64,000 nt of DNA from an uncultured Alphaproteobacteria bacterium (GTDB taxonomy: Bacteria > Pseudomonadota > Alphaproteobacteria > UBA2966): positions 3,196,365 to 3,260,364 of the forward strand of contig OY282368.1 of assembly GCA_958295725.1 (NCBI GenBank). The letters are read 5' to 3'. Shown in pieces: positions 28,203 through 60,802 of the stretch. A program made the translations under genes and the position numbers. Each line of letters begins with the position of its first letter. The first letter of the stretch is position 1. The notes under the pieces were generated by a model. It was not told the origin of the DNA. It was given only the letters and a program-made list of their open reading frames with translations, and ran no database searches.

Positions 28203-29447
28203 ATGTTGAAATTCAAGGATCTCCGCAAGAAGGAGAGAAGGAGAGAAGGAGAGAAGGAGAGAAGGAGAGAAGGAGAGAAGGAGAGAAGGAGAGAAGGAGA
28301 GAAGGAGAGAAGCCAGTCCACGCCCGCGGGCGGGGATCGTCGCCGTTTTCTGAAGGGCGGCGCGACGGCCGCCGCGGCGGCGACCGCGGCCGTGGCGTTC
28401 CCGCAGGTCTCCAGGGCCCAGACGGCGACCCTGAAGTTGCAGTCGTCATGGGGCGCGACCAGTCCGTTCCAGGAAATGGCCAAGCAGTACGTCGACCGCG
28501 TCGAGGCGATGGCCGGCGGCCGGCTGAAGATCGATCTGTTGCCGGCGGGCTCCGTCGTCAAGGCGTTCCAGGTGCAGGACGCCTGCCACAGCGGCGTGCT
28601 CGACGCCGCCCACACGGTGACGGCCTACTGGTACTCGAAGAACAAGGCCGCGTCCCTGTTCGGCACCGGCCCCGTGTTCGGTGCCAACGCCGCGCAGATA
28701 CTGGCCTGGATCCACTTCGGCGGCGGCAAGGAGCTGCTGACGGAGCTGCAGCGGGACATCCTCAAGCTCGATATCCTCAGCTTCTTCGCCATGCCCATGC
28801 CGACGCAGCCGCTGGGCTGGTTCAAGGAGCACATCGAGAGCGTCGATCAGCTCAAGGGCCTCAAGTACCGCACGGTGGGCCTCGCCACCGACATCATGCA
28901 AGGCATGGGCCTCAAGGTGACCCAGCTCCCCGGCGGGGAGATCATGCCGGCCCTGGAGAAGGGCGTGATCGAAGCGTTCGAGTTCAACAACCCGACGGCC
29001 GACAGCCGCTTCGGGGCGCAGGATGTCTCCAAGCACTACCATATGGGCAGCTACCATCAGGCGGCGGAGTTCTTCGAGCTCATCTTCAACAAGACGAAGT
29101 TCGACTCGCTGCCGAAGGAGCACCAGGCGATCCTCGAGTACGGCGCCGAGGCCGCGAACACGGCCAACTACGGCTGGGCCATGGACCAGTACTCCAAGGA
29201 CCTCCAGTGGCTCATGGCCGACCCGCAGAATGTCAACGTCTATCGCACCGATCAGTCGATCATGAATGCCCAGCTCGACTCCTGGGACAAGGTGCTCGGC
29301 AAGCTCATGGGCCAGGACCCCTTCTTCAAGAAGGTGGTCGAGAGCCAGAGGGTGTGGTCGGAGCGGGTGGCGTTCTACGACCTCGTGAACTCGGCCGATT
29401 ACAAGCTTGCCTACGAGCATTACTTCCCGGGCAAGCTGCCCTTCTAG
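28203..29447 (+). CDS. TRAP transporter substrate-binding protein (DctP/TakP type)
   Basis: 414 residues from the ATG at 28203, fixed by the strong GGGGAGGAA site 7-8 nt upstream. Codons 10-36 are an 8-bp tandem repeat encoding Arg/Glu/Lys-rich RREGEKER units. A twin-arginine signal follows (RRRFLKGG, residues about 46-53) with a hydrophobic Ala-rich core and cleavage after VSRAQ. The mature domain begins TLKLQSSWGATSPFQEMA and contains GLKYRTVGLATDIMQGMG and EAFEFNNPTADSRFG, typical of the TakP-like group that binds 2-oxo or related carboxylates. Periplasmic. No alternative start exists between repeat and signal, so repeat-number changes would switch expression. Ligand unproven. Confidence 0.92.
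   Translation: MLKFKDLRKKERRREGEKERRREGEKERRREGEKERSQSTPAGGDRRRFLKGGATAAAAATAAVAFPQVSRAQTATLKLQSSWGATSPFQEMAKQYVDRVEAMAGGRLKIDLLPAGSVVKAFQVQDACHSGVLDAAHTVTAYWYSKNKAASLFGTGPVFGANAAQILAWIHFGGGKELLTELQRDILKLDILSFFAMPMPTQPLGWFKEHIESVDQLKGLKYRTVGLATDIMQGMGLKVTQLPGGEIMPALEKGVIEAFEFNNPTADSRFGAQDVSKHYHMGSYHQAAEFFELIFNKTKFDSLPKEHQAILEYGAEAANTANYGWAMDQYSKDLQWLMADPQNVNVYRTDQSIMNAQLDSWDKVLGKLMGQDPFFKKVVESQRVWSERVAFYDLVNSADYKLAYEHYFPGKLPF
28231..28310 (+). repeat. Ten perfect copies of an 8-bp unit inside the dctP leader
   Basis: AGGAGAGA is repeated ten times without error. Eight is not divisible by three, so losing or gaining one or two copies shifts the frame, while three copies (24 bp) restore it. 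Such tracts mutate by slipped-strand mispairing in phase-variable genes. Confidence 0.9.
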
Positions 29448-53012: not shown

Positions 53013-53210
53013 TCACGCCGCGTCCTTTCGGCCGGTCACGGAGTCGCGCAGACCGTCGATCGGGCCTTCGAGGCGGGCCATCCGTTGCTCGAGGCCGTCC
53101 ATGCGCCGTCCGAGGCGTTGCTCGATCTTGCCCATGTCCGCCCGCAGCCGGGCGAAGACGACGACGATCAGCGCCGCCAGACCGATGAATCCGCCTGGTT
53201 CCGGGGTCAT
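53013..53210 (-). CDS. Small membrane-anchored coiled-coil protein
   Basis: 65 residues from the ATG at 53208-53210 (MTPEPGGFIGLAALIVVVFA), with GGGAG upstream. One N-terminal membrane helix is followed by a heptad-rich coil (MGKIEQRLGRRMDGLEQRMA). The design resembles the tandem array at 54.0-57.3 kb, but the sequence is not a close copy. Function unknown; such proteins are often membrane-tethered trimers or dimers. Confidence 0.7.
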   Translation of the reverse strand: MTPEPGGFIGLAALIVVVFARLRADMGKIEQRLGRRMDGLEQRMARLEGPIDGLRDSVTGRKDAA

Positions 53211-53282: not shown

Positions 53283-53825
53283 CTACTCCGGAACGGCATT
53301 CGCGCGCAGCTCGCGCGCGCGGGTGAGGATCGCGTTCTCCAGTTCCGTCGCCGTTCCGTCGCCCACGTCGCCGTCGACCCAGCGGTCGCCCGCCGCGAGC
53401 CGTTGCCGGAACACCGATACCTTCACGCCGTCCGCGCGCAGCCGGCGGTCGAGGATGTAGACCGTCATCTTGAAGCGCTCCGAGGGCGTCTCGAGAGGCG
53501 AGTACCAGTCGGTGATGATCACGCCGCCGAAGGGGTCGGCGGACGAGAGCGGCATGAACGAGACGGTGTCGAGCGAGGCCCGCCAGAGGAACGCGTTGAC
53601 GCCGATGCCCCCGCCGTCCGACGGCCGGGCGTCCGGACCTCCGAGGAGGGGAATCCCGCCGCCGAACAGCCCGCCGCTGTCGTCGCCCTCGAACGGGGCC
53701 TTCCTGGGGTCGTAGTCGACGTCGCCGACTTCCTCGATCCTCGGGTTCTCGCATCCGACGGCGAGCAGCAGGACGCCGCCGAGAACGCCGGTCAGCAGGA
53801 GGCGCTTGCGCCGGGGTCCGGACAT
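53283..53825 (-). CDS. DUF3576 lipoprotein
   Basis: 180 residues from the ATG at 53823-53825, with GGAGGAG upstream; earlier in-frame codons are unsupported. The lipobox is LLAVGCEN. The conserved core GIGVNAFLWRASLDTVSFMP, then SADPFGGVIITDWYSPLETP, is the DUF3576 signature found mainly in alphaproteobacteria. Probably an outer-membrane or periplasmic lipoprotein. It often neighbours leuS-lptE in relatives, consistent with an envelope role. Function unknown. Confidence 0.9.
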   Translation of the reverse strand: MSGPRRKRLLLTGVLGGVLLLAVGCENPRIEEVGDVDYDPRKAPFEGDDSGGLFGGGIPLLGGPDARPSDGGGIGVNAFLWRASLDTVSFMPLSSADPFGGVIITDWYSPLETPSERFKMTVYILDRRLRADGVKVSVFRQRLAAGDRWVDGDVGDGTATELENAILTRARELRANAVPE

Positions 53826-54001: not shown

Positions 54002-54355
54002 ATGACCGATTTCGAGACCGCCAGCCTGGTTGTCGCGGCCGCCGGAGCCGCCGCCGCGTTCGTATCGGCCGGCGCCGCCACCGTCGCGGCCGTCGGCATC
54101 TGGCACGGTATCCGCGCGATGGTCCGGGGCAACGACGAACGCGGGCGCCAGCAAGGCGAAGCGTTGCGGCAGCAAGGCGAGGCGTTGAAGCAGCAACGAG
54201 AAGCCGACGACCAGCGCCACGAAGAAGCCATGACCAGGGCGGACAAGCACCACGAGGCCACCATGACGGCGCTGAACGAACTGATCCGGACCGGCCAGCG
54301 CCAGACGGCCGCTCTCGACGAACTGCTCCGCCGCCCCGCGTCCGCTACTCACTGA
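54002..54355 (+). CDS. Array protein 1 (membrane/coiled-coil, unknown family)
   Basis: 117 residues. N-terminal type I: MTDFETASLVVAAAGAAAAF then VSAGAATVAAVGIWHGIRAM, one or two membrane passes. The coil has ALRQQGEALKQQREADDQRH, EEAMTRADKHHEATM and TALNELIRTGQRQTAALDEL, ending LRRPASATH. I do not recognise the family. No signal-peptide cleavage site or enzymatic motif is visible. The C-terminus is predicted to be a long amphipathic coiled coil. It is the promoter-proximal copy, 29 nt before copy 2. Confidence 0.8.
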   Translation: MTDFETASLVVAAAGAAAAFVSAGAATVAAVGIWHGIRAMVRGNDERGRQQGEALRQQGEALKQQREADDQRHEEAMTRADKHHEATMTALNELIRTGQRQTAALDELLRRPASATH

Positions 54356-54384
54356 TATCGACAACCGGCCGGGGGACCGCCGCC

Positions 54385-54765
54385 ATGACCGATTTCGAGA
54401 CCGCCAGCCTGGTTGTCGCGGCCGCCGGAGCCGCCGCCGCGTTCGTATCGGCCGCTGCCGCCACCGTCGCGGCCGTCGGCATCTGGCACGGTATCCGCGC
54501 GATGGTCCGGGGCAATGACGAACGCGGGCGCCAGCAAGGCGAGGCGTTGCGGCAGCAACGCGAGGCGTTGAAGCAGCAACGCGAAGCCGACGACCAGCGC
54601 CACGAAGAAGCCATGACCAGGGCGGACCAGCGTCACGAAGAAACCATGACGGCGCTCCGACACCAGGCCGCCGCCCTCGACGAACTGATCCGGGCCGGCC
54701 AGCGCCAGACGGCCGCCCTCGACGAACTGCTCCGCCGCCCCGCGTCCGCGCCCGGCGCCGGGTGA
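54385..54765 (+). CDS. Array protein 2
   Basis: 126 residues, N-terminal type I, nearly identical to copy 1 over the first 80 residues. The coil reads READDQRHEEAMTRADQRHE then ETMTALRHQAAALDELIRAG, ending QRQTAALDELLRRPASAPGA. It starts 29 nt after copy 1 with a short GGGGGA-containing spacer that lacks the palindrome and -10-like box found before later copies, so it probably shares a transcript with copy 1. The start is the ATG at 54385; the longer upstream frame is a shadow of copy 1. Confidence 0.8.
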   Translation: MTDFETASLVVAAAGAAAAFVSAAAATVAAVGIWHGIRAMVRGNDERGRQQGEALRQQREALKQQREADDQRHEEAMTRADQRHEETMTALRHQAAALDELIRAGQRQTAALDELLRRPASAPGAG

Positions 54766-54837
54766 ATCCCGCGCGCCCGGCGATGTCGCTATGATCGCAC
54801 CTGACCGATACCGACGACCGGCCGGAGAACCGCCGCC

Positions 54838-55248
54838 ATGACCGACTTCGAGATCGCTTCCCTCGCCATCGCCGCCGCCAACGCCACGGCCGCCATCGTC
54901 GCCGCCGTCGGCATCTGGCACGGTATCCGCGCGATGGTCCGCGCCAACAAGGAACGCGCCGTTATCCTCGATCAACAACGCGAAGCCGACGACCAGCGCC
55001 ACGCCGAAGCCATGACCAGGGCGGACAAGCAACACGAAGAAGCCATGACCAGGGCGGACAAGCACCACGCCGAGACCATGACGGCACTCGACGAATTGAT
55101 CCGGGGCGGACGCCGCCAGCACGAGGCCACCATGACGGCGCTCCGACACCAGGCCGCTGCCCTCGACGAACTGATCCGGGCCGGCCAGCGCCAGACGGCC
55201 GCTCTCGACGAACTGCTCCGCCGCCCCGCGTCCGCGCCCGCCGGGTGA
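54838..55248 (+). CDS. Array protein 3
   Basis: 136 residues, the longest copy, N-terminal type II: MTDFEIASLAIAAANATAAI then VAAVGIWHGIRAMVRANKER. The coil carries AVILDQQREADDQRHAEAMT, two successive ADKQHEEAMT/ADKHHAETMT units, TALDELIRGGRRQHEATM, and the shared LRHQAAALDELIRAGQRQTA. It is preceded by a full 72-bp spacer with GCGAT-N9-ATCGC. Confidence 0.8.
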   Translation: MTDFEIASLAIAAANATAAIVAAVGIWHGIRAMVRANKERAVILDQQREADDQRHAEAMTRADKQHEEAMTRADKHHAETMTALDELIRGGRRQHEATMTALRHQAAALDELIRAGQRQTAALDELLRRPASAPAG

Positions 55249-55319
55249 ATCCCGCGCGCCCGGCGATGTCGCTATAATCGCATCTGACCGATACCGACGA
55301 CCGCCGGGGGACCGCCGCC

Positions 55320-55649
55320 ATGACCGTGTTCGAGATCGCTTCCCTCGCCATCGCCGCCGCCAACGCCACGGCCGCCATCGTCGCTGCCGTCGGAATCTGG
55401 CACGGCATCCGCGCGATGGTCCGCGCCAACAAGGAACGCGCCGTTATCCTCGATCGACAACGCGAAGCCGACGAACGCCGCCACGAAGAAACCATGACCA
55501 GGGCGGACCAGCGTCACGAAGAAACCATGACGGCGCTCCGACACCAGGCCGCCGCCCTCGACGAACTGATCCGGGCCGGCCAGCGCCAGACGGCCGCTCT
55601 CGACGAACTGCTCCGCCGCCCCGCGTCCGCGCCCGGACCCGCCGGGTGA
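55320..55649 (+). CDS. Array protein 4
   Basis: 109 residues, N-terminal type II but beginning MTVFEIASLAIAAANATAAI. The coil is shorter: AVILDRQREADERRHEETMT, RADQRHEETMTALRHQAAAL, and the common DELIRAGQRQTAALDELLRR tail. The spacer upstream has TATAAT inside the palindrome. A length change relative to copy 3 is explained by loss of whole coil modules. Confidence 0.8.
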   Translation: MTVFEIASLAIAAANATAAIVAAVGIWHGIRAMVRANKERAVILDRQREADERRHEETMTRADQRHEETMTALRHQAAALDELIRAGQRQTAALDELLRRPASAPGPAG

Positions 55650-55721
55650 ATCCCGCGCGCCCGGCGATGTTGCTATGATCGCACCTGACCGATACCGACG
55701 ACCGGCCGGGAGACCGCCGCC

Positions 55722-56051
55722 ATGACCGTGTTCGAGATCGCTTCCCTCGCCATCGCTGCCGCCAACGCCACGGCTGCCATCGTCGCCGCCGTCGGCATCT
55801 GGCACGGTATCCGCGCGATGGTCCGCGCCAACAAGGAACGCGCCGTTATCCTCGATCGACAACGCGAAGCCGACGAACGCCGTCATGAAGAAACCATGAC
55901 GGCGCTGAACGAACTGATCCGGGACGGACGCCGCCAGCACGAGGCCACCATGACGGCGCTGAACGAACTGATCCGGGCCGGCCAGCGCCAGACGGCCGCT
56001 CTCGACGAACTGCTCCGCCGCCCCGCGCCCGCGCCCGGACCCGCCGGGTGA
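55722..56051 (+). CDS. Array protein 5
   Basis: 109 residues, the same length as copy 4 and the same type II N-terminus, but with a different middle: ETMTALNELIRDGRRQHEAT then MTALNELIRAGQRQTAALDE. The duplicated TALNELIR segments show module shuffling. Preceded by a 72-bp spacer with TATGAT in place of TATAAT. Confidence 0.8.
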   Translation: MTVFEIASLAIAAANATAAIVAAVGIWHGIRAMVRANKERAVILDRQREADERRHEETMTALNELIRDGRRQHEATMTALNELIRAGQRQTAALDELLRRPAPAPGPAG

Positions 56052-56122
56052 ATCCCGCGCGCCCGGCGATGTCGCTATAATCGCATCTGACCGATACCGA
56101 CGACCGCCGGGGGACCGCCGCC

Positions 56123-56398
56123 ATGACCGTGTTCGAGATCGCTTCCCTCGCCATCGCTGCCGCCAACGCCACGGCCGCCATCGCCGCCGCCGCCGGCATC
56201 TGGCACGGCATCCGCGCGATGGTCCGCGTCAACGACGAACGCGGGCAACAGCAACGCGAGGCGTTGAAGCAGCAACGCGAAGCCGACGAACGCCGCCACG
56301 AAGAAAGCATGACGGCGCTGAACGAACTGATCCGGGCCGGCCAGCGCCAGACGGCCGCTCTCGACGAACTGCTCCGCCGCCCCGCGTCCGCCGGGTGA
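56123..56398 (+). CDS. Array protein 6
   Basis: 91 residues, the shortest copy. It is a hybrid: a type II membrane segment (ANATAAIAAAAGIWHGIRAM) joined to a type I-like linker (VRVNDERGQQQREALKQQRE). One TALNELIRAGQRQTAALDEL unit completes it. The chimera supports recombination between the two subfamilies. Confidence 0.8.
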   Translation: MTVFEIASLAIAAANATAAIAAAAGIWHGIRAMVRVNDERGQQQREALKQQREADERRHEESMTALNELIRAGQRQTAALDELLRRPASAG

Positions 56399-56472
56399 AC
56401 CCCGCGCGCGCCCGGCGATGTCGCTATGATCGCACCTGACCGATACCGACGACCGGCCGGGGGACCGCCGCC

Positions 56473-56859
56473 ATGACCGACTTCGAGATCGCTTCCCTCG
56501 TCATCGCTTTCGCGAACGCCACGGCCGCCACCGTCGCGGCCGTCGGCATCTGGCACGGCATCCGCGCGATGGTCCGCGCCAACAAGGAACGCGCCGTTAT
56601 CCTCGATCAACAACGCGAAGCCGACGAACGCCGTCACGCCGAAACCATGACGGCACTCGACGAATTGATCCGGGACGGACGCCGCCAGCACGAGGCCACC
56701 ATGACGGCGCTCCAGCACCAGGCCGCCGCCCTCGACGAACTGATCCGGGCCGGCCAGCGCCAGGCCGTCGCCCTCGACGAACTGATCCGGGCCGGCCAGC
56801 GCCAGACGGCCGCTCTCGACGAACTGCTCCGCCGCCCCGCGTCCGCGCCCGCCGGGTGA
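56473..56859 (+). CDS. Array protein 7
   Basis: 128 residues. The membrane segment is a type II variant, FEIASLVIAFANATAATVAA. The coil includes RHAETMTALDELIRDGRRQH, EATMTALQHQAAALDELIRA and a tandem GQRQAVALDELIRAGQRQTA, that is, two copies of the ALDELIRAGQRQ unit. Upstream spacer 74 bp. Confidence 0.8.
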   Translation: MTDFEIASLVIAFANATAATVAAVGIWHGIRAMVRANKERAVILDQQREADERRHAETMTALDELIRDGRRQHEATMTALQHQAAALDELIRAGQRQAVALDELIRAGQRQTAALDELLRRPASAPAG

Positions 56860-56930
56860 ATCCCGTGCGCCCGGCGATGTTGCTATAATCGCATTCGCCG
56901 ATTCCGACGACCGGCCGGGGGACCGCCGCC

Positions 56931-57302
56931 ATGACCGACTTCGAGACTGCCAGCTTGGTTGTCGCGGCCGCCGGAGCCGCCGCCGCCTTCGTATCGGCCG
57001 GCGCCGCCACCGTCGCGGCCGTCGGAATCTGGCACGGCATCCGCGCGATGATCCGCGCCAACAAGGAACGCGCCGTTATCCTCGATCAACAACGCGAAGC
57101 CGACGACCAGCGCCACGAAGAAACCATGACCAGGGCGGACCAGCACCACGCCGAAACCATGACGGCGCTGAACGAACTGATCCGGGCCGGCCAGCGCCAG
57201 GCCGCCGCCCTCGACGAACTGATCCGGGCTGGCCAGCGCCAGACGGCCGCTCTCGGCGAACTGCTCCGCCGCCCCGCGTCCGCGCCCGAACCCGCCGGGT
57301 GA
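56931..57302 (+). CDS. Array protein 8
   Basis: 123 residues. It returns to the type I N-terminus (FETASLVVAAAGAAAAFVSA) but has the type II linker (IRANKERAVILDQQREADDQ), a second chimera. The coil ends with a doubled ALDELIRAGQRQ unit and ALGELLRRPASAPEPAG. It is the last copy; an inverted repeat and the porin gene follow. Confidence 0.8.
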   Translation: MTDFETASLVVAAAGAAAAFVSAGAATVAAVGIWHGIRAMIRANKERAVILDQQREADDQRHEETMTRADQHHAETMTALNELIRAGQRQAAALDELIRAGQRQTAALGELLRRPASAPEPAG

Positions 57303-57475: not shown

Positions 57476-58624
57476 ATGAAAGCGCACAAACACCAGCTTC
57501 TCGCCACCAGCGCCCTGGCGACCGCCGCGATGGCGATTCCGGGTGTCGCCGCGGCCGAGATGATGAAGCCGACCCTCTCGCTGGGCGGGTTCTTCTACCA
57601 CGACACCCACTTCGCCAGCCAGGACATGGACAAGGACAAAAGCTCCGTCCTGCACCACATCGACTCCGAGGTCCACTTCAAGCTGGGCGCCGAGCTCGAC
57701 AACGGCCTCAAGATCGGCGGGCGGATCGAACTCGAGGGTCTCAATTCCGGCGGCGATGACATCGACGAAACGCGTCTCGACCTCTCGGGCGCGTGGGGGA
57801 TGGTCAGGCTCGGCACGACCAACTCCGGCCGCTACGGCGACACCTGGTCGGTGTGGGGCCCGAACGTGGCCCACGGCGTCTCGTCGGGCGTGACGACCGA
57901 GTGGCTGGTCATGCCCGGGGGAACAGGCGGCTTCGCGTTCCGCAAGCCGCTCGGCTCGGCCAATGTCGACGTCTCGAACGACGACCCGGCCATCACCTAC
58001 TTCACGCCCCGCTTCAACGGCTTCCGGCTCTCGCTGACCCACCGTCCCGAAATCCAGGACACGGGCGGAAAGAACATCGGGTCAAGCGGTTCGGACGAGA
58101 CGGCGAACTACACCAACGCGCTCGACGGCTCGGTCCAGTACTCGGGCGACGTGGGCGGCATGAAGGTCGCCCTCCTGCTCGGCGGGGCCACGGCGGACGC
58201 TCCGGGGGTCATGGACGACTACAAGATCGTGAACGGCGGCGCCACGCTCGGCGCGCATGGCTTCAAGATCGGCGGCCATGTGGCCGACGTGGAAGACGAG
58301 ATGAACAAGGGCAGCGGCACGGCGTACAACGTCGGCGCGAGCTACGGGCAGGGGCCCTGGGCGGTGAGCGCGACGTTCCACGACGGCGAGGTCTCGCACA
58401 AAGTGCCGTCAGGAACTCCGCCGGGCGCGAAACCCAACTACGGGGACGGCCCCGCCGCGGCCGAGATGTCGGTGTGGGCTCTGGGCACGAGCTACACCCT
58501 CGGTCCGGGCGTGCGCGTCCTGGCGTCGTACCAGAACGCGGAGGTGACCGTGAATCCCGTCGTGGGCGACAGCACGAGCAACGAGGGTTCGGCCTTCACC
58601 CTCGGTCTCGCGGTCAACTTCTGA
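57476..58624 (+). CDS. Outer-membrane porin
   Basis: 382 residues from the ATG at 57476, with GGAGG 8-12 nt upstream. Signal peptide with cleavage after PGVAAAE. The mature sequence begins KPTLSLGGFFYHDTHFAS and contains alternating beta strands such as FKLGAELDNGLKIGGRIELE and LSGAWGMVRLGTTNSGRYGD, the latter typical of general Gram-negative porins (loop 3 constriction). It ends in Phe (GLAVNF), the outer-membrane targeting residue. A trimeric 16-strand barrel is likely. A strong terminator follows. Confidence 0.9.
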   Translation: MKAHKHQLLATSALATAAMAIPGVAAAEMMKPTLSLGGFFYHDTHFASQDMDKDKSSVLHHIDSEVHFKLGAELDNGLKIGGRIELEGLNSGGDDIDETRLDLSGAWGMVRLGTTNSGRYGDTWSVWGPNVAHGVSSGVTTEWLVMPGGTGGFAFRKPLGSANVDVSNDDPAITYFTPRFNGFRLSLTHRPEIQDTGGKNIGSSGSDETANYTNALDGSVQYSGDVGGMKVALLLGGATADAPGVMDDYKIVNGGATLGAHGFKIGGHVADVEDEMNKGSGTAYNVGASYGQGPWAVSATFHDGEVSHKVPSGTPPGAKPNYGDGPAAAEMSVWALGTSYTLGPGVRVLASYQNAEVTVNPVVGDSTSNEGSAFTLGLAVNF

Positions 58625-59113: not shown

Positions 59114-60261
59114 TGTTATGACCCAAAAGTAACTGGTATATTTGTGGCTGGTTTCCCATCAGGGGTCTGGCCATGCCCCGCGGTCGTCCAATCGAACCCA
59201 TCGTTCTGAACCACGAGCAGAGGTCTCAACTCCTCAGCCTCGCCAACTCCCGCTCCCTGCCCCACGGGCTGGTCCGGCGCGCGCAAATCGTTCTCGCCTG
59301 CGCCGACGGCGAGCCCAACGCTTCCATCGCCAAACGGATGCGCCTGACCCCCACCACCGTCGGCAAATGGCGCAAGCGCTACCGCTTGCAAGGAATCGAG
59401 GGCTTGCACGACGAACTGCGACCGGGACGGCCCCGAACCCACGAAGACGAACGCCTCGCCGAAGTCATCAACGCCGCCCTGCAAACCACCCCACCCGACG
59501 GCGCCACCCACTGGAGCACACGCGCCATGGCCGGGAACGCCGGCGTCTCCAAGTCCACCGTGCAACGCTGGTTCAGCCTGTTCGGCATTCAGCCCCACCG
59601 CCAGCGCCACTTCAAGCTGTCCAACGACCCCTTCTTCGCCGAGAAGGTCCGCGATATCGCCGGGCTCTACCTCAACCCGCCCGATCACGCCGTCGTGTTG
59701 TGCGTCGACGAGAAAACCCAAGTCCAGGCGCTCAGCCGAACCCAACCCATCCTGCCGATGGGATTGGGCTATGTCGAAGGCTTCACCCACGATTACGTCC
59801 GCCACGGCACCACGACCCTGTTCGCAGCCCTCGACATCGCCACCGGCAAGGTCCTCACCCAGTGCAAGCGGCGCCATCGCCACCAGGAGTTCCTCGCCTT
59901 CCTGCACCACATCGACGCCAATGTCCCCGAACCCCTCGACATCCATCTCATCGTCGACAACTACGCCACCCACAAGCATCCCAAGGTCAAAGCCTGGCTC
60001 GCCGCCCGCGCCCGCTACCACGTCCACCACACCCCCACCTATGCCTCCTGGCTCAACCAGGTCGAACGCTGGTTCGGCATCATCACCCAGAAGGCCATCC
60101 GACGCGGCTCGTTCTCCAGCGTCAAGGAACCGGTCAACAAAATCGAACGCTTCGTCGAGCACTACAACGCCAATGCAACCCCCTTCATGTGGACCGCAAC
60201 CCCCGAATCAATACTCGCCAAAATCCAACGACTTTGCGCATGTATCTCCGGGATACAACAC
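59113..60261 (+). mobile_element. IS630-family insertion sequence
   Basis: Terminal inverted repeats GTGTTATGACCC (left, 59113) and GGGATACAACAC (right, ending 60261) match at most positions and are bounded by the TA dinucleotide at 59111-59112 and 60262-60263, the duplicated target typical of IS630/Tc1. It appears complete. It inserted exactly at the stop codon of the DUF1902-like gene. Confidence 0.92.
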
Positions 60262-60264
60262 TAG
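59173..60264 (+). CDS. IS630-family transposase
   Basis: 363 residues. N-terminal helix-turn-helix domain (NASIAKRMRLTPTTVGKWRK) with a linker GRPRTHEDERLAEVI. DDE residues lie in VVLCVDEKTQVQALSRTQP, LHLIVDNYATHKHPKVKAWL and YASWLNQVERWFGIITQKAI. Continuous, without stops, so probably active. Its stop codon straddles the right element boundary and uses the duplicated TA. Confidence 0.93.
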   Translation: MPRGRPIEPIVLNHEQRSQLLSLANSRSLPHGLVRRAQIVLACADGEPNASIAKRMRLTPTTVGKWRKRYRLQGIEGLHDELRPGRPRTHEDERLAEVINAALQTTPPDGATHWSTRAMAGNAGVSKSTVQRWFSLFGIQPHRQRHFKLSNDPFFAEKVRDIAGLYLNPPDHAVVLCVDEKTQVQALSRTQPILPMGLGYVEGFTHDYVRHGTTTLFAALDIATGKVLTQCKRRHRHQEFLAFLHHIDANVPEPLDIHLIVDNYATHKHPKVKAWLAARARYHVHHTPTYASWLNQVERWFGIITQKAIRRGSFSSVKEPVNKIERFVEHYNANATPFMWTATPESILAKIQRLCACISGIQH

Positions 60265-60278
60265 GGAAATCGCGATTT

Positions 60279-60802
60279 TCACGGAATGAAGCCAGAGAAA
60301 TTGGCTCGATTAGCGAATTGCAGGCATGTCCTGGCCATTGCCGTCTCGAGACACGCTCTCGGGGGTGGCCGATCGCCGAGTTCGATCGGATGGAACCACC
60401 CGAGACAGCTGTCGAGGCACTTGGTGGCGATGCCGCCTCGGGCGCGCTCGATACGGCGCGAAAGACCCCCTTTTCGAGCAGACCGGCCACAGTCCGGTAC
60501 GCCTTCAAGTGAGTGCTGTCGATCATCGCCGCGCCCGTCGCCTAGCTGTCCGCAGCCAGGTCCTCGAAGATACGGTTGAAGACGCCGGCCTTGCTCCAGC
60601 GCACGAAGCGGTTGTAGAGGGTCTTGCGCGGGCCGTATTCGGGCGGCGCGTCGCGCCACCCGAGGCCGTTACGCAGAACATGGACGATGCCGGAAATGAC
60701 GCGCCGGTCATCGATCCTGGGTACGCCGCGAACCTTGTTGGGCAGCAGCGGCCGGATACGGTCGAACCGGGCGTCGGATAGCCAGAAGTGGTGGTCGGAC
60801 AT
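60279..60802 (-). pseudogene. IS5-type (IS427-like) transposase relic
   Basis: The 5' part (60542-60802) encodes 86 residues of the first transposase frame: WLSDARFDRIRPLLPNKVRG then WRDAPPEYGPRKTLYNRFVR, a classic DUF4096 start. A second frame resumes at MIDSTHLKAYRTVAGLLEKG, then shifts frame (SRRIERARGG) and loses similarity. The catalytic C-terminus is missing, so it is dead. It lies directly next to the IS630 element; no clear ends are visible. Confidence 0.8.

Follow-up and report, generated by a model that had tools for sequence, protein, structure and literature searches.

A tandem array of eight mosaic genes for small, predicted membrane-anchored helical proteins in an uncultured alphaproteobacterium

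Eight complete paralogous genes lie head to tail on the forward strand at positions 54002-57302 of a 64,000-nucleotide window (the whole stretch of DNA analyzed here) from an uncultured alphaproteobacterium (assembly GCA_958295725.1, contig OY282368.1, positions 3,196,365 to 3,260,364), and encode products of 91-136 amino acids (aa). They belong to an undescribed, fast-evolving, multicopy family, of which the array is the local peak. In our view the array is best explained if one gene of this apparently horizontally mobile family recently expanded in place into tandem copies. Its product would be a small single-pass inner-membrane protein in which an alanine-rich N-terminal transmembrane helix, oriented N-out, runs on into a long cytoplasmic alpha-helical rod. 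Most likely the rods would associate laterally into homo- and hetero-oligomeric bundles, and these may act as membrane-tethered scaffolds or spacers. Unequal crossing-over, with the near-identical GIWHGIRAM stretch and the intergenic spacers as its sites, is proposed to multiply and mix the copies, and slippage of 7-, 11- and 14-residue units to change rod length while reading frame and helical register are kept. The evolutionary account (tandem expansion, recombination and register-preserving length change) is one that we hold with considerable confidence. The functional account, of membrane-tethered oligomeric rods serving as scaffolds, has about an even chance of being right, and so has the explanation taken whole, in which membrane-tethered helical rods, register-preserving length evolution and expansion by unequal crossing-over are joined.

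The array and its coding capacity

An N-terminal hydrophobic segment, the GIWHGIRAM sequence and a helical body are present in 8/8 copies. An earlier note on this DNA had described eight consecutive genes for proteins of 91-136 residues ending in a fixed ALDELLRRP tail; the genes are borne out by the open reading frames (ORFs), by codon usage and by their substitution patterns, and the tail is found in seven of the eight copies, copy 8 ending in ALGELLRRP. A codon-usage caller trained on the neighboring genes chose exactly these eight ORFs and passed over the long antisense ORFs, and antisense coding was rejected. Among the type II heads (defined below) there are 6, 24 and 47 substitutions at codon positions 1, 2 and 3, the third position being dominant. 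Because pairwise ratios of nonsynonymous to synonymous substitution (dN/dS) among the copies range from 0.24 to 0.64, the eight ORFs are real genes under purifying selection. The copies differ from one another and sit inside a 3.52-Mb contig, which argues against an assembly artefact.

Mosaic copies and stepwise lengths

With copies 1-2 taken as the reference for type I and copies 3, 4, 5 and 7 as that for type II, informative DNA sites uphold the claim that there are two N-terminal types and that copies 6 and 8 are chimeras of them. Copy 8 carries 31 type I informative sites followed by 45 of type II, a clean single crossover. Copy 6 is its reverse, with type II sites through the N-terminus and a type I linker, and one small patch between. 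The strongly shared GIWHGIRAM stretch contains the crossovers or lies close to them. Head-to-tail order, chimeras and variable copy number, as expected of unequal crossing-over, are all found, the last at an orthologous site where a distantly related genus has one copy or two.

That coil modules are gained and lost as units also holds. Tandem Repeats Finder identifies units of 21, 33 and 42 bp within the array genes, and coil lengths, measured from QREAD to LLRRP, are stepwise: in sorted order they are 32, 43, 50, 50, 50, 57, 71 and 79 residues, so that the excess above the shortest copy (0, 11, 18, 18, 18, 25, 39 and 47) can in every case be written as 7a+11b. About two-fifths of the integers up to 47 are sums of sevens and elevens, and the five distinct non-zero values would all fit by chance in ~1-2% of cases, a figure that is our own estimate for a rule chosen after the data had been seen. 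Array copies have a membrane segment of 33 or 40 residues and a linker of 13, 17 or 24.

An orthologous site in five species

Both behaviors recur at a site independent of the array. In five metagenome-assembled genomes (MAGs; loci L156, L157, L159, L160 and L161), one or two tandem copies of a family gene lie between an FAD-monooxygenase gene and HIG1/PduO genes, the identities of these neighbors having been read by eye from the sequence. The orthologues are 86, 93, 100, 97 and 86 aa long, that is +0, +7, +14, +11 and +0, while the PduO and HIG1 neighbors show no length variation and the one difference in the FAD-monooxygenase is of 9 residues, in a single species. The site thus shows both copy-number change and length change in 7- and 11-residue units. 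The family gene also evolves faster than its neighbors, with a dN/dS of 0.23 versus 0.09-0.11 for them at a comparable synonymous divergence (dS; 0.44 versus 0.27-0.38). Where a species has two tandem copies, it is uncertain which of them is truly orthologous to the single copy of another, the second copy of L157 resembling the single copy of L160. The first copy of L157 has an isoleucine codon where the aligned ATG is expected, and an in-frame stop is reported for the region, so some family copies may be decaying. Length evolution in this unnamed protein family looks constrained by helical register, both among the tandem copies and among orthologues whose neighbors are unchanged, and the array offers a compact natural experiment in how helical rods gain and lose modules.

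Spacers and predicted promoters

Copies 3-8 are each preceded by a spacer of 71-74 bp. The six spacers have a mean identity of 94% and carry TATGAT or TATAAT (a TATRAT box). With up to two mismatches the spacer motif occurs genome-wide in the array only, with one further match at three mismatches, and since it is confined to the array the idea of a regulon was rejected. Because these six near-identical spacers carry an array-unique TATRAT box, per-copy transcription is likely for the copies that they precede. Divergence among the spacers is 0.062 versus 0.217 at synonymous sites, a difference suggesting that the spacers are either constrained or recently converted. Their variants alternate along the array (TATGAT, TATAAT, TATGAT, TATAAT, TATGAT, TATAAT), the pattern that duplication of two-gene units would leave. 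A hairpin or attenuator in the spacer RNA was rejected, folding being no better than that of shuffled sequences.

Distribution and mobility of the family

The genome that holds the array has 14 family copies at six loci, eight in the array and six at five others. Two members, at 1248 kb and 1046 kb of contig C1 (L021 and L023), directly follow tRNA-Ser genes; a tandem pair lies at C1:2602 kb, a short member at C1:2465 kb, and a member at C1:1408 kb adjoins a transposase gene and CRISPR-like repeats. The array is real, but it is only part of the picture, given these further copies and distant multicopy relatives in other bacteria. No significant family match was found in two genus-mates and four family-mates. 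The interval between the DUF3576 lipoprotein and porin genes that flank the array is short and empty in genome G001 and holds a different gene in G002, with no family gene in either. Among 385 genomes sampled across the class, clear matches were found in G000, G273, G299 and G376, and there were four weak matches (0.0007-0.007). G273, which belongs to another family, has a homologue in the DUF3576-porin interval in the opposite orientation, a placement that could reflect either shared ancestry or independent arrival. In the genus g228 there are 1-9 family copies in each of eight genomes.

A first profile search of genome contigs, with a profile built from the array genome, gave no match; a second gave eight loci, seven of them in alphaproteobacterial MAGs and the eighth in a Candidatus Binatia MAG, in which the protein reads MTEYETASL...ALRALIERTAPPA. 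The Binatia contig could be mis-binned. Isolate names of the form 'jk18x..bins' appear in work on the symbionts of Ircinia sponges that reports Binatia MAGs as well (PMC9531527), and from the common naming and accession style we infer an Ircinia origin for the p16x bins, the Binatia one included. Distant homologues appear, then, to be carried by a second alphaproteobacterial genus, from Ircinia sponges, and by one Binatia MAG. This patchy spread, in which one homologue comes from a MAG in another phylum, suggests that members of the sponge microbiome have exchanged the family.

Alternatively, the genes might have arrived as accessory cargo of conjugative or other mobile elements, acting at the inner membrane in, for instance, exclusion, mating or maintenance, and have been amplified after settling on the chromosome. 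Consistent with this are the patchy distribution, the tRNA-Ser genes that precede L021 and L023, and the surroundings of members in g228, the sponge-symbiont genus, which were identified by eye: five (L138, L139, L142, L143 and L147) lie beside genes for a Toprim primase, a MoxR-type ATPase, a VWA protein and a single-stranded DNA-binding protein (SSB), and that of L141 shares its contig with a MobF-like relaxase, a tyrosine recombinase and HipA. Conjugation genes are absent next to the array, however. Other members (L022, L140, L144, L145 and L148) stand alone between housekeeping or metabolic genes, one such site being kept in five species, and public plasmids, phages and viral contigs gave no match with the queries tried. 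We regard a cargo origin as unlikely, if worth keeping in view. Two further observations were made by eye: an IS5-like copy adjoins the family member in L024, and a macrodomain-like gene (L139, 8947-9402) lies next to the SSB gene on a mobile-element-like contig of a sponge symbiont.

An equally improbable alternative is a nearly neutral birth-and-death family that spreads and duplicates readily under weak constraint, its array having no selected collective function. Such a family would explain why dN/dS exceeds that of the neighbors, why an orthologous site holds one copy or two and a genome 1-9, why some copies contain in-frame stops (in G398 and G396) and why the genus-mates manage without the family. 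It sits less well with an array in which 8/8 copies are intact with dN/dS below 1, and in which the spacers have diverged less than synonymous sites, although recent gene conversion might have the same effect.

Predicted topology and structure

In 14/14 family members examined the N-terminal segment is hydrophobic and its N-flank has a charge of -1 or lower, and in 13/14 the C-flank is zero or positive. Since the N-flanks are negative and the C-flanks mostly positive, the positive-inside rule predicts an N-out/C-in topology with a cytoplasmic rod. AlphaFold, given copy 4 and an alignment of 22 family sequences, models a single helix over residues 3-99 (97 residues; mean predicted local distance difference test score 92, predicted template modeling score 0.47). 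The expectation of membrane-tethered proteins with variable coils is supported in this form, as a predicted single long helix.

The other proposal of the earlier note, a diversifying surface or envelope system with its coil facing the periplasm or the outside, would draw on the mosaic copies and the envelope genes next door, but it is disfavored and, we judge, very unlikely, because the predicted topology is C-in and the array has no switching architecture: neither a lipobox, nor a silent-cassette layout or expression site, nor a switch was found there, nor any export feature besides the single membrane helix, every copy is complete, copies 3-8 have their own spacers, and the association with these neighbors is not conserved in the genus, as G001 and G002 attest.

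Several results weigh against the array as expanding, separately transcribed and register-bound oligomeric rods. A simple two-box promoter scanner found no sigma-70 site above threshold, and for that reason the per-copy promoters stay a prediction. A polar helix modeled by AlphaFold as a single chain is no evidence of assembly. Fourier analysis shows weak heptad or hendecad periodicity in the hydrophobic residues, so we prefer the term helical rod, with coiled-coil assembly as an inferred property; the label coiled coil would rest on the helix model and on the 7- and 11-residue unit lengths. Finally, slippage along periodic repeats already in place might produce those lengths with no selection for register. 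At the ambitious end of the preferred explanation lies a family shared horizontally among marine-sponge symbionts, in which rod length would be adjusted by quanta of 7 and 11 residues and the array would supply graded rods and interfaces (91-136 residues) for combinatorial mixing at the inner membrane, a picture that we consider quite doubtful.

Features of the array and its surroundings

The array and its flanks are listed in Table 1; the domain matches uphold a location between an envelope lipoprotein and a porin.

Table 1. Array genes, intervening spacers and flanking genes (window positions)
Feature	Coordinates	Strand	Description
DUF3576 lipoprotein gene	53283..53825	-	flank; PF12100, E 2.5e-43; conserved neighbor of LeuS
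Copy 1	54002..54355	+	117 aa; type I N-terminus
Copy 2	54385..54765	+	126 aa; type I; 29 bp past copy 1, without promoter-like spacer
Spacer before copy 3	54766..54837	+	promoter-like; TATGAT
Copy 3	54838..55248	+	136 aa, longest; type II; additional 11-residue ADKQHEEAMTR module
Spacer before copy 4	55249..55319	+	promoter-like; TATAAT; identical to spacer before copy 6
Copy 4	55320..55649	+	109 aa; type II; protein used for structure model
Spacer before copy 5	55650..55721	+	promoter-like
Copy 5	55722..56051	+	109 aa; type II
Spacer before copy 6	56052..56122	+	promoter-like
Copy 6	56123..56398	+	91 aa, shortest; chimera: N-terminus type II, linker type I
Spacer before copy 7	56399..56472	+	promoter-like
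Copy 7	56473..56859	+	128 aa; type II; 14-residue module duplicated
Spacer before copy 8	56860..56930	+	promoter-like
Copy 8	56931..57302	+	123 aa; chimera: N-terminus type I, body type II
Porin gene	57476..58624	+	flank; Porin_4 PF13609, E 2.5e-35; GTG/ATG starts farther upstream possible

Adjoining the DUF3576 gene, positions 53013-53210 (-) encode a further small membrane-plus-helix protein with heptad-like repeats, a weak relative of which lies near the porin gene of G002. Just downstream of the porin gene are transposase genes assigned by eye, one IS630-like (59173-60264, +) and one an IS5-like fragment (60542-60802, -). Elsewhere in the window, a perfect 8-bp tandem repeat (AGAAGGAG, 10.6 copies, 28228-28312) lies a few codons past the start of a gene for a TRAP-type solute-binding protein (28203-29447); a repeat unit whose length is not divisible by three, near a gene start, is typical of phase-variable genes.

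Comparison with known systems

That the family is unrecognized is supported by Pfam, NCBIfam, PHROGs and PDB sequences, where it has no accepted match, the library matches being sub-threshold and mutually inconsistent. Weak PADLOC matches (best E 0.0003, to LeoBC) were judged to be helix-composition noise and rejected.

The CCDC90-like/DUF1640 proteins (PF07798; MCUR1, CCDC90B and bacterial homologues) are likewise small membrane-anchored helical stalk proteins and are likewise multicopy in the array genome, with ~10 or more copies, three of them above the Pfam cut-off and with runs of 11-residue repeats and the DUF1640 neck motif. In that family, however, the anchor is C-terminal, the head N-terminal and the beta-layer carries an ATK motif (neck motif A-T-K-[polar]-[DE]; PMC4786415), whereas the array proteins have an N-terminal anchor and no ATK motif. 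No array protein examined matches PF07798 even at E 5, and PF07798 is absent from the families shown for 22 family members. A gene resembling those for CCDC90-like/DUF1640 proteins lies directly upstream of the family members at the 1046-kb and 2602-kb loci (L023 and L022), and a truncated one, read by eye, upstream of the L021 member. Three CCDC90-like paralogues (L085, L086 and L087, at C1:1278 kb, 1038 kb and 1272 kb) carry the 11-residue stalk repeat SLRSDLEKVET in differing number.

Rz-like phage spanins, too, combine a membrane helix at the N-terminus with a polar helix after it, and the PHROG matches to them are weak (best E 0.0019). The spanin helix is periplasmic (N-in/C-out) and spanin genes lie in a lysis cassette with holin and endolysin, whereas the array proteins are predicted by charge to be C-in, and no lysis genes were recognized near the array, the neighbors being DUF3576, LeuS and porin genes. 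Antigenic variation from silent cassettes relies on one expressed copy and incomplete donors; here 8/8 ORFs are complete and copies 3-8 have near-identical promoter-like spacers. The closest parallel in genetic behavior is with tandem multigene families shaped by unequal crossing-over and gene conversion, which share with the array head-to-tail copies, chimeras and variable copy number, and from which it differs in belonging to an undescribed family whose length changes come in units of 7 and 11 residues.

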